Shown here in pieces: positions 56,412 through 60,387 of a stretch of 64,000 nt of DNA. The notes below the pieces were generated by a model that saw only the letters and a program-made list of their open reading frames with translations, made no database searches and was not told the DNA's origin. The translations under genes and the position numbers were made by a program. Numbering within the stretch: position 1 is the stretch's first letter; every line of letters starts with the position of its first letter. Source of the stretch: Streptomyces sp. NBC_00250 (GTDB taxonomy: Bacteria > Actinomycetota > Actinomycetes > Streptomycetales > Streptomycetaceae); the NCBI RefSeq assembly GCF_036192275.1, contig NZ_CP108088.1, forward strand, positions 5,705,501-5,769,500, written 5' to 3'.

Positions 56412-57014
56412 ATGACCCGACTGATCCTCGCCACCCGCAACCCGGGCAAGATCACCGAACTTCACGCGATCCTCGCCGACGCAGGTCTCGACCTGGAACT
56501 CGTCGGCGCGGACGCGTACCCGGAGATCCCCGACGTCAAGGAAACCGGCGTCACCTTCGCCGAGAACGCCCTGCTGAAGGCCCACGCCCTGGCCCAGGCC
56601 ACCGGCCTGCCGGCCGTGGCCGACGACTCCGGCCTCTGCGTCGACGTCCTGAACGGCGCCCCCGGCATCTTCTCCGCCCGCTGGTCGGGCGCCCACGGCG
56701 ACGACCGAGCCAACCTGAACCTCCTCCTGGCCCAACTGTCCGACATCGCGGACGAACACCGAGGCGCCCACTTCGCCTGCGCCGCGGCGCTGGCGCTGCC
56801 CGACGGCACGGAGAGGGTGGTGGAAGGCCGCATGGAGGGTGTGCTGCGCCACACCCCGAAGGGCACGAACGGCTTCGGCTACGACCCGATCCTCCAGCCG
56901 AACGGCCACGAGGTGACCTGCGCCGAACTGACCCCGTCGCAGAAGAACGCGATCAGCCACCGCGGCAAGGCGTTCCGCGCCTTGGTGCCGGTGGTGAAGG
57001 AACTGCTGGGCTGA
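56412..57014 (+). CDS. rdgB: XTP/dITP diphosphatase (HAM1-like)
   Basis: 200-aa pyrophosphatase that clears non-canonical purine nucleotides (dITP, XTP). Motifs: ILATRNPGKITEL, VKETGVTFAENALLKAHALAQATGLPAVADDSGLCVDVLNGAPGIFSARWSG, GTNGFGYDPIL and SHRGKAFRAL. ATG 56412, 8 bp after the lipoprotein stop. Last gene before a terminator and the UAG-anticodon tRNA. Confidence 0.97.
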   Translation: MTRLILATRNPGKITELHAILADAGLDLELVGADAYPEIPDVKETGVTFAENALLKAHALAQATGLPAVADDSGLCVDVLNGAPGIFSARWSGAHGDDRANLNLLLAQLSDIADEHRGAHFACAAALALPDGTERVVEGRMEGVLRHTPKGTNGFGYDPILQPNGHEVTCAELTPSQKNAISHRGKAFRALVPVVKELLG

Positions 57015-57030
57015 GGCACCCGCATGCGAA

Positions 57031-57060
57031 CGGCCCAGCGCCACTCAGGGCGCTGGGCCG
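57031..57060 (+). terminator. Hairpin terminator after rdgB
   Basis: 12-bp perfect stem CGGCCCAGCGCC / GGCGCTGGGCCG with ACTCAG loop, followed by TCGT. May also stop the minus-strand tRNA transcript. Confidence 0.8.
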
Positions 57061-57068
57061 TCGTACGG

Positions 57069-57141
57069 TACGCCCGGTCGGATTCGAACCGACAGACACG
57101 ACCACCTAAAGATCGCCGCTCAGCCCTTGGCGTACGGGCGC
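57069..57141 (-). tRNA. Class I tRNA-like gene with UAG anticodon
   Basis: 73-nt cloverleaf on the minus strand: acceptor GCGCCCG/CGGGCGT (pair 1-72 is G-U), D arm with 3-bp stem CGC/GCG, anticodon stem CGATC/GGTCG with loop TTTAGGT (UAG at 34-36), 5-nt variable loop TGTCT, perfect T stem GTCGG/CCGAC with TTCGAAT, and discriminator A. No CCA is encoded (ACCG follows). UAG would read CUA (Leu), but leucine tRNAs are class II with long variable arms, and this one is class I. It lies 12 bp after the stop of the HNH gene on the same strand. Confidence 0.72.
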
Positions 57142-57153
57142 GTACTCGATCCC

Positions 57154-57816
57154 TTACTTTACCCGCCGTCCTCCCCGGCACCAGGTGTCGGTCGTCGCAT
57201 GGCAGTTGGGACAGAGCAGCCGCAGGTTCTCGCGCCGGTCGTCGCTCCAGTCGCCGCTGATGTGGTCGACCTCAAGGGTCATCGGCTTGCCGAGCCATTC
57301 AGGGCCGATGCCGCACCGTGCGCACTTCTCGGGCACGCCCACCTCGCTCAGCGCGCGACGCAGCAGATGGGTTCTTGTCCGTCGCGTTCCGTGGTGCCGG
57401 ATGAGGATGTCGTCGGCTCGTCTGACCGGCGTCGGCCCAGGCCGTCCCCGCTGGTGTGCCTGACCCAGGAAATGGGAGGTACTGACACCGTCCTCCGCCG
57501 TCCACAGACGGAAGAGCGTGCGCATGTGCCCGCTGGGCTCCAGTCCCAGGGCACGCAGGGCGCTCGCCACAGAGGTCGCCCCTTGGACCGCGTACCGCAG
57601 GTCTTCTTCTGTCGGGCGCGGCGGTTGCCCACCGCGCCTCTGACGGTGGGGAAAGTGCGAGACGTCGATGCGGTAGTGGGCGAAGCGCCTCAGCAGGTGG
57701 CGTCCCAGATTGTCGTACGGCTGCGTGCCCAGGAAGACGATGACCTCGCCGAGGTCCGAGCAGCGTGCTGCCGCCTCCGCCAGCAGCTCACGGGTGTAGC
57801 GCACGCCGGTCGTCAT
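57154..57816 (-). CDS. HNH endonuclease family protein (second of pair)
   Basis: 220-aa protein. N-terminal helical DNA-binding-like repeats (YTRELLAEAAARCSDLGEVIVFLG ... YRIDVSHFP) lead to a C-terminal HNH/Cys4 domain: CARCG (two Cys), LEVDHISGDWSDDRRENLRLLCPNCHATT (His, Asn, two Cys). ATG 57816 with GGGGAGGA; start overlaps the upstream paralogue's stop (ATGA). Family activity is metal-dependent DNA cleavage; whether these act as homing, restriction or repair enzymes is unknown. A tRNA-like gene follows 12 bp after the stop. Confidence 0.85.
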   Translation of the reverse strand: MTTGVRYTRELLAEAAARCSDLGEVIVFLGTQPYDNLGRHLLRRFAHYRIDVSHFPHRQRRGGQPPRPTEEDLRYAVQGATSVASALRALGLEPSGHMRTLFRLWTAEDGVSTSHFLGQAHQRGRPGPTPVRRADDILIRHHGTRRTRTHLLRRALSEVGVPEKCARCGIGPEWLGKPMTLEVDHISGDWSDDRRENLRLLCPNCHATTDTWCRGGRRVK

Positions 57817-58454
57817 CGAGTCCTCCCCTTTGCGCGCCCCCGATAACTGTCCGTCGTCGAGTGGCAGTTCGGGCACAGAAATCGCAGGTTCTCGATCCTG
57901 TTGTTCCGCCAGTCCCCGTCGATGTGATCGATTTCCAGGGGGAGCGGTTGGCCCAGCCAGACGGCCTGGTTGCCGCACAGGACACAGTGCTGGGGTACTC
58001 CGGACTCCGTCATCGCCCATGCGATCCGCTCATGCGGGATGCGCCGGGTTCTCGGGCCGGTCTGCTCGACGAGTAGCACCTCGGGAGTCCGGCGTCCTCG
58101 GGTCTTGCCGCGCCGAGACGGACGGCGGAAGTGTGATGTGTCGATCCCGTAGGCCTTGACGCGGCGGCTGATGTGCGTGTGCTGGCCACCCACGATCTCC
58201 ACTCCCAGCCGGCGCAGCACCTCGCACATGTTCGTGGAAGCCGCCACGGCCTCAGCCAGGACTTCCTTCGTCCACCGTGTCCCCTCCCGCTCGAAGTGCG
58301 AGATGTCCACCCCCAGCTTCCGCATCCGCTCCCGCACGTACCTCCGCGTCGGACTCCTCGGATCCACCCCCAACCGCTCCAGCGCCTCCGTCAGCGTCCG
58401 CGCCCCCCGCGTCGCCGCCTCCAGTCGCTCCCTCGTGTACGCGCTCGTCCCCAT
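57813..58454 (-). CDS. HNH endonuclease family protein (first of pair)
   Basis: 213-aa paralogue of the next gene, with the same plan: repeated YTRERLEAATRGARTLTEALERLGV / WTKEVLAEAVAASTNMCEVLRRLGV modules at the N terminus (homeodomain-like) and C-terminal CVLCG ... LEIDHIDGDWRNNRIENLRFLCPNCHSTT, retaining His, Asn, His-type residues and four Cys. ATG 58454. The pair overlap by four bases, pointing to tandem duplication and co-translation. No methylase or recognition subunit is nearby. Confidence 0.86.
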   Translation of the reverse strand: MGTSAYTRERLEAATRGARTLTEALERLGVDPRSPTRRYVRERMRKLGVDISHFEREGTRWTKEVLAEAVAASTNMCEVLRRLGVEIVGGQHTHISRRVKAYGIDTSHFRRPSRRGKTRGRRTPEVLLVEQTGPRTRRIPHERIAWAMTESGVPQHCVLCGNQAVWLGQPLPLEIDHIDGDWRNNRIENLRFLCPNCHSTTDSYRGRAKGRTR

Positions 58455-58534
58455 CGCGTCCCCTCCCCAGTACGGATCCCGTACGTACTAACGACCCGAA
58501 TATCGGACGGTCACGTCATATCGCGTACGAAAAA

Positions 58535-58577
58535 CGGAACGGCCCGCACCGCCCTTTCGGGGGTGCGGGCCGTTCCG
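58535..58577. terminator. Hairpin terminator between bcp and the HNH operon
   Basis: 16-bp perfect stem CGGAACGGCCCGCACC / GGTGCGGGCCGTTCCG with GCCCTTTCGGG loop. On the minus strand it lies just beyond bcp and upstream of the HNH genes. Confidence 0.82.
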
Positions 58578-58587
58578 GAGGGAGACG

Positions 58588-59061
58588 TCAGGCCTCGACG
58601 CCCAGGTCCCTGATGATCTTGGCCACGTGGCCCGTCGCCTTCACGTTGTAGAAGGCGTGCTCCACCTTGCCGTCCTCGTCCACGACGACCGTCGAGCGGA
58701 TCACGCCCGTCACCACCTTGCCGTACAGCTTCTTCTCGCCGAAGGCGCCGTACGCCTCCAGGGTCTCCTTCGACGGGTCGCCGACCAGCGTGACCTTCAG
58801 GTTCTCCTTCTCGCGGAACTTCGCCAGCTTCTCCGGCTTGTCCGGGGAGACGCCGATGACGTCGTAGCCCGCCGCCGCGAGCACGTCCAGGTTGTCCGTG
58901 AAGTCGCAGGCCTGCTTCGTGCAGCCGGGGGTCAGCGCGGCCGGGTAGAAGTAGACGATGACCTTGCGGCCCTTGTGGTCCGCGAGGGAGACCTCGTTGC
59001 CGTCCGCGTCGGGCAGGGTGAAGGCGGGGGCGGTGTCGCCGGGCTGCAGTCGCTCGCTCAT
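58588..59061 (-). CDS. bcp: Thioredoxin-dependent thiol peroxidase (peroxiredoxin Q)
   Basis: 157-aa peroxiredoxin of the BCP/PrxQ type that reduces hydroperoxides. Peroxidatic Cys47 in FYPAALTPGCTKQACDFTD, resolving Cys52 five residues on, as in atypical two-Cys PrxQ. The usual FYPKxxTPGCT Lys is Ala. Further motifs: VIGVSPDKPEKLAKFREKENL and STVVVDEDGKV. ATG 59061. Downstream terminator separates it from the HNH genes. Confidence 0.95.
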   Translation of the reverse strand: MSERLQPGDTAPAFTLPDADGNEVSLADHKGRKVIVYFYPAALTPGCTKQACDFTDNLDVLAAAGYDVIGVSPDKPEKLAKFREKENLKVTLVGDPSKETLEAYGAFGEKKLYGKVVTGVIRSTVVVDEDGKVEHAFYNVKATGHVAKIIRDLGVEA

Positions 59062-59927: not shown

Positions 59928-59975
59928 GGTAGGCCCTGGTGACCATGGTCACCAGGGCCTACCGCCGTTTTTTGC
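59928..59975 (+). terminator. 36-bp perfect palindrome plus T6 terminator
   Basis: 59928-59963 is a perfect 18+18 palindrome (GGTAGGCCCTGGTGACCA and its complement), followed by GCCG and six T. A classic intrinsic terminator, rare with a full T tract in this GC range. It isolates the GroES-like gene from the riboswitch that begins 10 bp later. Confidence 0.88.
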
Positions 59976-59985
59976 TAGCCTGGAG

Positions 59986-60034
59986 ACACCCGACGAGACG
60001 CGCCGTACCGGGATCCCGACAAGACGACGCACCC
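59986..60034 (+). promoter_or_regulatory. Guanidine-III (ykkC-III) riboswitch
   Basis: The conserved string CCCGACGAG-A-CGCGCCGTACC-GGGATCCC-GACAAGACGACGC matches the guanidine-III pseudoknot: CGACGAG and GACAAGACG are the ligand-pocket segments. It lies 33 bp upstream of the SMR exporter ATG, so it should turn on export when guanidine accumulates, probably by freeing the ribosome site CGGAGG (60051-60056). Confidence 0.9.
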
Positions 60035-60066: not shown

Positions 60067-60387
60067 ATGGCCTGGGTTCTTCTTGTCGTCGCGGGTCTGC
60101 TGGAAGTCGGCTGGTCGATCGGGATGAAGTACACCGACGGCTTCACGCGGCTCTGGCCGAGCGTGTTCACCGGCGCCGGGATCATCGCTTCCATGGTGCT
60201 GCTGTCGCACGCGGCCAAGACGCTGCCCATCGGTACGGCGTACGGCGTGTGGGTGGGCATCGGCGCGGCCGGTGCGGCGGTGCTCGGCATGGTGGTCCTC
60301 GGTGAGCCGGCGACCGCCGCCCGGATCTTCTTCGTGTGTCTGCTGCTCGTCGCCGTGGTGGGTCTCAAGGCGACGTCCGGTCACTGA
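60067..60387 (+). CDS. sugE: SMR-family guanidinium exporter (SugE/Gdx)
   Basis: 106-aa four-helix small multidrug resistance protein. The conserved Glu13 is in LLEVGWSIGMKYTDGF, and IGTAYGVWVGIGAAGAAVLGMVVLGE matches the SugE/Gdx subtype. With the guanidine-III riboswitch upstream, guanidinium-proton antiport is the expected role. ATG 60067 with GGAGG about 10 bases upstream. Its last seven bases overlap the convergent penicillin-binding protein gene. Confidence 0.95.
   Translation: MAWVLLVVAGLLEVGWSIGMKYTDGFTRLWPSVFTGAGIIASMVLLSHAAKTLPIGTAYGVWVGIGAAGAAVLGMVVLGEPATAARIFFVCLLLVAVVGLKATSGH

Follow-up and report, generated by a model that had tools for sequence, protein, structure and literature searches.

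We examined a tRNA gene in the 9.27-Mb genome of Streptomyces sp. NBC_00250 (G000), within a 64,000-nt stretch referred to here as the window (Table 1). The gene carries the anticodon UAG and is flanked by two conserved genes, which we take to be bcp and rdgB. Two HNH nuclease genes, here named HNH a and HNH b, occupy the space between bcp and the tRNA. As the original prediction had stated, the tRNA starts 12 bp after the stop of HNH a, on the same strand and in line with both nuclease genes; HNH b in turn shares 4 bases with the start of HNH a. The two proteins share approximately 39% identity, and both matched the Pfam HNH domain above the cut-off, the search for HNH a having been run on the longer frame of the mechanical ORF list, which has an earlier in-frame start. 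The translation of HNH a, read by eye, contains both CxxC motifs and the catalytic DH...N...H motif that is expected, together with the HNH domain, of a homing nuclease of this type. No sigma-70-like promoter was found between window positions 57000 and 59200. One hairpin with a T run scored as terminator-like; it lies between bcp and HNH b (window 58537-58554, minus strand) and would separate bcp from the HNH-tRNA unit. The inverted repeat between the tRNA and rdgB is without a T run and was not called by the terminator scan, and is possibly a shared terminator. The HNH genes and the tRNA are presumably co-transcribed. Further upstream, the window holds a guanidine-III riboswitch (59964-60033, plus strand; RF01763, 48.3 bits, over the gathering score) just ahead of a small membrane-protein ORF (60067-60387), presumably a guanidine exporter of the SMR type.

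Table 1. Features of the tRNA-Leu(UAG) locus (window positions) and of the second class I locus (chromosome positions).
Feature	Position	Strand	Basis
Class I tRNA-Leu(UAG), type IA, only UAG tRNA found in the genome	57069..57141	-	ARAGORN, RF00005
HNH nuclease a, next to the tRNA, subtype alpha (our label), 220 aa when counted from the ATG at 57816	57154..57816	-	
HNH nuclease b, 213 aa	57813..58454	-	
Exchangeable block (proposed cassette), all between the bcp and rdgB ends	57015..58587	-	Comparison with relatives
GC-rich inverted repeat between tRNA and rdgB	57030..57061		Read by eye
rdgB-like gene, conserved flank 3' of the tRNA, convergent	56412..57014	+	
bcp-like peroxiredoxin gene, conserved upstream flank, same strand as HNH genes and tRNA	58588..59061	-	
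Second class I tRNA-Leu(CAA)	G000:C1:6789009-6789081	-	
LAGLIDADG-like gene, 259 aa, 108 bp downstream of tRNA-Leu(CAA)	G000:C1:6788121-6788900	-	

ARAGORN, run on the window, called a tRNA-Leu(tag) on the minus strand at 57067-57141, and the Rfam model RF00005 matched 57141..57069 with 42.3 bits (gathering score 29). This is the lowest-scoring of the 70 RF00005 matches in the genome, yet well above the cut-off. The class I form, the UAG anticodon, the variable loop of 5 nt and the G-U first pair that had been read from the sequence were confirmed. The predicted body length of 73 nt also held; the claim of pairing throughout did not, as C13 and A22 are mismatched, leaving effectively three pairs in the D stem, and U30.G40 and G1.U72 are wobble pairs. 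The anticodon loop reads UUUAGGU, and CCA is not encoded. The long variable arm of canonical bacterial class II tRNA-Leu is absent, and the molecule combines a leucine anticodon with the discriminator A73, as expected of a tRNA-Leu. DNA matching of the locus covered 21 of 150 genus genomes, this one included, and a tRNA with UAG was kept at 20 of these 21 loci, again including this genome. Changes in the anticodon stem among relatives were compensated (alignment by eye), and the tertiary pair 15-48 co-varied between two class I types of Streptomyces, being G-C in all 27 members of type IB and A-U in 16 of 20 members of type IA, with C.U or U.U in the remaining four. Half of the type IA members (10/20) carry G1.U72 and the other ten G1-C72, and A73 was kept in all rows of the tRNA-Leu(UAG) alignment. 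The UAG tRNA is real and not a product of chance. The T arm is nearly identical between type IB and many class II genes.

The genome census with RF00005 typed 69 of its 70 matches, the remaining one being Gly-like by eye. The leucine tRNAs comprise class II genes for CAG, GAG (three copies) and UAA, and class I genes for CAA and UAG. This class I pair represents the only tRNAs of the genome with C13.A22 and C12-G23; its class II tRNA-Leu genes have G13.A22. Across 34 distinct class I UAG sequences, phage sequences included, the 13.22 position was C.A in 33 and G.A in one; in four of the 33, an additional 5' T in the tRNA call probably displaced the numbering. Three odd, lower-scoring tRNA-like genes were seen elsewhere on the chromosome (G000:C1:812521-812592, 3390462-3390532 and 4462193-4462264), which ARAGORN listed as Pro(cgg), Val(gac) and one untyped gene.

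A pattern search designed for the spacing of both tRNA classes detected no other UAG tRNA in the genome, which speaks against a missed class II UAG gene. Under standard decoding rules, anticodons CAG and GAG do not read CUA. We reject the earlier proposal of an orphan, since no second UAG tRNA was found and the gene occupies the position at which the genus carries its tRNA-Leu(UAG); a decoy for the nucleases, likewise suggested, would be an unlikely role for the sole reader of a sense codon. Nor does it look like an accessory phage tRNA, which would lie in a prophage or tRNA array and beside a host gene for the same codon; this one is the sole UAG tRNA found and lies at a core locus. To see how CUA is used, we aligned 800-kb portions of this genome and of a relative bearing a class II tRNA-Leu(UAG) (G136), using open frames filtered by GC3 and codon-position divergence. 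CUA was rare (32 of 103,090 codons) and, in this small sample, aligned to leucine in 12 of 14 positions; the corresponding values in the same run were 85% for CUC, 82% for CUU and 82% for UUG. Other filters gave 5/7 (strict), 6/8 and 11/13, and no residue other than leucine occurred more than once at aligned CUA positions. By these alignments, CUA still behaves as a leucine codon, and neither its reassignment nor the recoding tRNA of the original prediction is supported. We regard the UAG tRNA as a working and, as far as found, the only tRNA-Leu for CUA. It would be leucylated by the single leucyl-tRNA synthetase (LeuRS), and its gene is presumably essential. No genome with a second LeuRS above the cut-off was seen in a genus listing that ran below that cut-off, and no LeuRS column separated the tRNA classes, the best difference being 0.45 at an I/V column; we thus saw neither a second LeuRS nor diagnostic LeuRS residues. 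Acceptance of the tRNA without a long arm is plausible by analogy, since in the passages cited A73 is described as crucial for E. coli tRNA-Leu and the long arm is not, and mitochondrial LeuRS charges tRNA-Leu lacking the long arm (PMC9976931).

We surveyed 150 genomes assigned to the same genus, here called Streptomyces relatives. Pattern searching found a UAG tRNA in 110 of them: 45 had class I only (20 IA and 25 IB), 65 had class II only, and none had both. For the other 40, a looser search indicated a class II tRNA with C32 in most of the genomes listed (by eye) and type IB in G072. In other rdgB-bcp intervals, where the original prediction had proposed to search, the same locus holds either a class I or a class II tRNA-Leu(UAG). 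From these searches we assembled 82 loci, one per genome, the class II members being those returned by the pattern searches and not a random set; rdgB adjoined the tRNA in 77 of the 82 (exceptions G032, G073, G089, G113 and G120). Outside the genus, ARAGORN confirmed a class I tRNA-Leu(UAG) in four of 384 other genomes of the phylum, and two further matches were tRNA-like. When mapped on a LeuRS tree of 40 genomes, types IA and IB and class II required 18 changes, compared with a mean of 18.7 after shuffling (as low in 86 of 200 shuffles), and the well-supported branches alone forced at least 11 changes for class II. On this tree the tRNA forms are scattered. Class II is probably the older state, judging from its prevalence. 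That a phage-style class I tRNA-Leu stands here in place of the class II tRNA-Leu(UAG), and is the only CUA reader detected, is a firm conclusion.

Comparison of relatives delimited the DNA that differs along with the tRNA. In four pairs, homology of the flanks extended as far as the bcp and rdgB ends, and the intervening block differed. For instance, G118 (type IB, with HNH) and G136 (class II, no HNH) share 95.5-97.7% and 96.8% identity in the flanks, and the distance from the bcp end to the tRNA start is 1467 bp in G118 and 43 bp in G136. The pairs G007/G049, G016/G003 and G000/G098 showed a like exchange, with 84-89% identity near the block. In the four HNH-less relatives compared, the block measured approximately 140-170 bp and contained only a class II tRNA-Leu(UAG). 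The HNH genes are hence present or absent at one site between homologous flanks, a pattern expected of homing nucleases. Five other pairs with inserts on both sides had less clean block ends, which counts against the homing reading, and in G100/G005, G134/G074 and G124/G099 the similarity on the rdgB side started inside the 3' half of the tRNA. In the compared loci, rdgB ended approximately 15-95 bp from the tRNA.

HNH-less loci were not uniform. Among 20 of class II, bcp ended 39-247 bp from the tRNA in 14, and six (G035, G045, G053, G059, G113 and G120) had neither HNH nor bcp within 1.5 kb; of four HNH-less class I loci, one had bcp at 116 bp and three (G002, G021 and G051) had neither. In these nine genomes the bcp-rdgB interval holds some other insert. 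Ten HNH-less loci contain other or unread upstream DNA, which slightly lowers our confidence in homing. At HNH-less class II loci, G136 and others, bcp often ends only approximately 40-100 bp before the tRNA, and the tRNA at such loci may depend on read-through from bcp.

We then related the HNH genes, sought within 1.5 kb upstream of the tRNA, to the tRNA class. Four non-Streptomyces genomes were left out of this table, and G073, with only 42 bp of upstream sequence, was dropped from the class II count. An HNH gene was present at 43 of 47 class I loci versus 14 of 34 class II loci (Fisher p 1.2e-6, uncorrected for kinship). Across 11 independent pairs on the LeuRS tree, a mean of 5.8 differed the same way, 0.0 the opposite way and 5.2 not at all (median p 0.031), with four genomes of no known HNH state left out and G005 counted as HNH-bearing on a 13-residue remnant. 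The rdgB tree, from which five genomes without rdgB beside the tRNA were omitted, gave only four supported independent pairs, which did not favor a link between class I and HNH presence (0.6 same, 1.3 opposite).

The kind of HNH gene also followed the kind of tRNA. Based on C-terminal motifs, we named three HNH subtypes, alpha, beta and gamma. Type IA loci carried alpha in 14 cases, beta in two, another form in one and none in three; type IB loci carried beta in 19, alpha in five, gamma in one, another form in one and none in one; and class II loci (G073 included) carried gamma in eight, alpha in five, beta in none, another form in one and no HNH in 21. The match is not strict, as IA with beta (2/20), IB with alpha (5/27) and class I without a visible HNH (4/47) all occur, which counts against homing. 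An HNH tree required 13 changes of tRNA type, compared with 24.5 after shuffling and a value as low in 0 of 200 shuffles, although it rests on few columns and has many unresolved forks; HNH sequences that were interrupted by a stop, had a short domain or came from loci lacking rdgB, plus one more, were left out. For the same genomes, the rdgB tree required 21 changes (shuffled 24.8; as low in 6 of 200). Among class II alleles, an anticodon arm altered from the commonest one was seen in 11 of 14 with HNH and in six of 21 without (p 0.006, uncorrected). The HNH gene appeared truncated or broken by eye in G004, G054, G014 and G083 and was reduced to the remnant mentioned above in G005, with the tRNA intact in each case; such decay beside an intact tRNA is as expected for a homing gene after fixation. 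Gaps between HNH and tRNA ranged from -2 to 69 bp in Streptomyces. In this genome, no relative of HNH b was found elsewhere, no HNH or LAGLIDADG relatives were found near other tRNAs (31 tRNA stretches), and 800 kb around the locus contained only the two HNH genes themselves.

A tblastn search with HNH a yielded 213 phage records. From the best 25 we examined 14 phage HNH relatives with 29-45% identity, several of them closely related to one another. Twelve of the 14 genes end between 21 bp inside and 1 bp before a tRNA gene. Nine of these tRNAs are tRNA-Leu, eight of the nine with UAG and two on the opposite strand. Class I tRNAs with C13.A22 were present in five (the related Ounavirinae Maleficent, EcSzw-2, PC79-13 and SP22, as well as phiPsa347), the tRNA-Leu of phage PPSC2 is class I with G.A, and D69 (a Vibrio phage), Atu_ph07 and an uncultured phage have class II tRNA-Leu. 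The non-leucine tRNAs beside phage HNH genes were Glu (GodonK) and Gly (Dorin, V45v66). Streptomyces phages Cursive and EGole contain an HNH relative with no adjoining tRNA, an observation that counts against homing. In a separate search, the annotated HNH homing endonuclease of Salmonella phage Arash was seen to overlap a tRNA-Leu by 10 bp. The HNH family further matched PHROG 10822, 'HNH endonuclease' (E 4e-57), and a 'homing endonuclease' domain in PADLOC. Class I tRNA-Leu genes with the anticodons UAG, CAA and UAA, most of them with C13.A22, occur in phages whose hosts differ widely. Judged from these sequences, this looks like a phage form of tRNA-Leu. A plasmid origin was rejected, with no plasmid match for the UAG tRNA and one weak match for HNH b. 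Neither HNH b nor the LAGLIDADG-like protein of the second class I locus had a sequence match among solved structures.

On balance, we think it somewhat more probable than not that an HNH and phage-type tRNA-Leu cassette has replaced the resident gene by intronless homing, bringing its own resistant rescue copy. The class I tRNA and the adjoining upstream HNH genes would move together as one cassette, and the HNH products are most likely free-standing homing endonucleases. Their cuts would fall in the tRNA-Leu(UAG) region of cassette-free chromosomes, and repair through the bcp and rdgB flanks would copy in the HNH genes together with a different tRNA allele, one different enough to escape cutting. 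The target is essential in this scheme, and the cassette must therefore bring a working replacement; the odd tRNA would be that rescue copy. Later the HNH gene would decay or be lost, and the odd tRNA would stay. This scheme predicts that the nucleases cut DNA and home and that the resident allele resists them; according to the cited passage of PMC10448857, sequence data by themselves are often not enough to decide whether a nuclease gene is a homing gene. Homing would explain the essential target, the matched HNH-tRNA pairs, the exchange of blocks and the decay of the nuclease genes. More tentatively, and with slightly more doubt than belief, the locus may be viewed as a naturally occurring 'cleave and rescue' gene drive directed at an essential tRNA gene: the HNH nuclease would destroy the resident tRNA-Leu(UAG) gene and provide an uncuttable class I tRNA-Leu in its place, leaving Streptomyces genomes dependent on a phage-style tRNA wherever CUA occurs. 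The original prediction was partly supported as a whole: a phage-type tRNA is what we found, the link to the HNH genes was borne out as meaningful, and the 'target for the nucleases' comes close to our preferred reading, with the modification that the targets would be other alleles of the tRNA gene, attacked at the DNA level.

The main rival to homing is that a class I CUA reader spread by ordinary homologous recombination at a locus that happens to collect HNH genes of other use, for example in defense, so that HNH and tRNA types match only through being a few bases apart. Block exchange and the scattered distribution also fit this explanation, and the imperfect matching of types and the loci with other inserts instead of HNH speak for it, as do weak PADLOC matches to Zorya ZorE HNH domains. 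Only the HNH-domain stretches matched the ZorE2 models, and no partner genes were present in the interval, which does not fit an anti-phage defense nuclease. Mere proximity also sits poorly with the behavior of rdgB, which ends nearby on the other side of the tRNA and tracks its type less well (21 versus 13 changes), with the same HNH family abutting tRNA-Leu in unrelated phages, and with the lack of an HNH relative elsewhere in this genome. We consider this rival less likely than homing. An RNA arms race, in which class I alleles are kept for escaping tRNA-cleaving toxins or phage defenses and the HNH genes are incidental, would suit the class I tRNA-Leu genes for UAG, CAA and UAA in large tRNA-rich phages, and Septu is described as cutting the variable loop of tRNA-Tyr (PMC13096335); it leaves both the HNH/tRNA type matching and the phage HNH-tRNA adjacency unexplained and appears improbable. 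Ambiguity of CUA through a class I tRNA that receives another amino acid, always or in part, is very improbable: a class I body with a leucine anticodon and a Streptomyces group reported with a mistranslating ProRSx/tRNA pair (PMC9437257) could suggest it, but CUA aligned to leucine in 12 of 14 positions, no genome appeared twice over the LeuRS cut-off in a listing that extended below it, C13.A22 with C12-G23 is limited in this genome to the two class I tRNAs with leucine anticodons, and A73 is kept in all rows of the tRNA-Leu(UAG) alignment.

The second class I tRNA-Leu gene of the genome is tRNA-Leu(CAA). This locus also alternates between class I and class II in Streptomyces, and the gene downstream encodes a protein in which two LAGLIDADG-like motifs were recognized by eye and whose Pfam LAGLIDADG_3 score falls slightly short of the cut-off (21.6 versus 22.5 bits). 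Both class-switching tRNA-Leu loci thus appear to carry homing-type nuclease genes, of different families. Among tRNA-Leu(CAA) genes, 12 of 18 in class I form and 15 of 16 in class II form had a relative of the LAGLIDADG-like gene next to them, in some cases a fragment; the presence of these relatives does not follow tRNA class in the expected direction, which counts against homing.

Several known systems resemble parts of the proposed mechanism. In phage T4, the free-standing homing nuclease SegB lies beside tRNA genes and drives the preferred inheritance of the tRNA gene region, and SegF and SegG are described as targeting the neighboring genes 56 and 32, respectively (PMC2988022). SegB is, however, a GIY-YIG and not an HNH enzyme and acts between co-infecting phages (PMC2988022), whereas the Streptomyces locus is on a bacterial chromosome, concerns the sole reader of a codon and involves a change of tRNA class, with cleavage being only predicted. 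The cited parts of two studies of mycobacterial tRNA arrays describe one cluster that holds both a class I tRNA-Leu(TAG) and an HNH gene, propose horizontal transfer and suggest a role of HNH in tRNA diversity; there, the short-loop tRNA-Leu is an accessory beside the normal class II tRNA, whereas in Streptomyces it replaces the latter (PMC6582537, PMC5966550). The tRNA arrays of phages (Ounavirinae, Otagovirus, GodonK, Dorin and others) have a homologous HNH gene at a tRNA, often a class I tRNA-Leu(UAG), but these tRNAs are accessory in phage genomes, and the HNH-tRNA spacing extends from -2 to 69 bp in Streptomyces. Mitochondrial tRNA-Leu without the long arm is likewise leucylated, with A73 and A14 being important; that case involves an organellar LeuRS, whereas here a bacterial LeuRS would serve class II tRNAs too (PMC9976931, in the passages cited). 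In yeast mitochondria, a similarly non-standard UAG tRNA, tRNA-Thr(UAG), replaces tRNA-Leu(UAG); according to the cited section, the CUN codons were reassigned (PMC7609411), whereas CUA in Streptomyces still behaves as leucine. In the literature searched, which included few subscription papers, we came across no bacterium described as reading a codon solely with a class I tRNA-Leu, and cytosolic tRNA-Leu is described as class II in the cited part of PMC9976931.

A single genus in which one locus alternates between class I and class II tRNAs for one codon, apparently served by a single LeuRS, represents a natural test of how LeuRS recognizes its tRNA. In Streptomyces, the reading of UUA is regulated by bldA, and the reading of the rare CUA might be regulated as well. 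If the HNH genes indeed drive the exchange, the locus would be a case of homing aimed at an essential bacterial tRNA gene, and phage-style tRNAs could in this way become indispensable to the bacteria that carry them.
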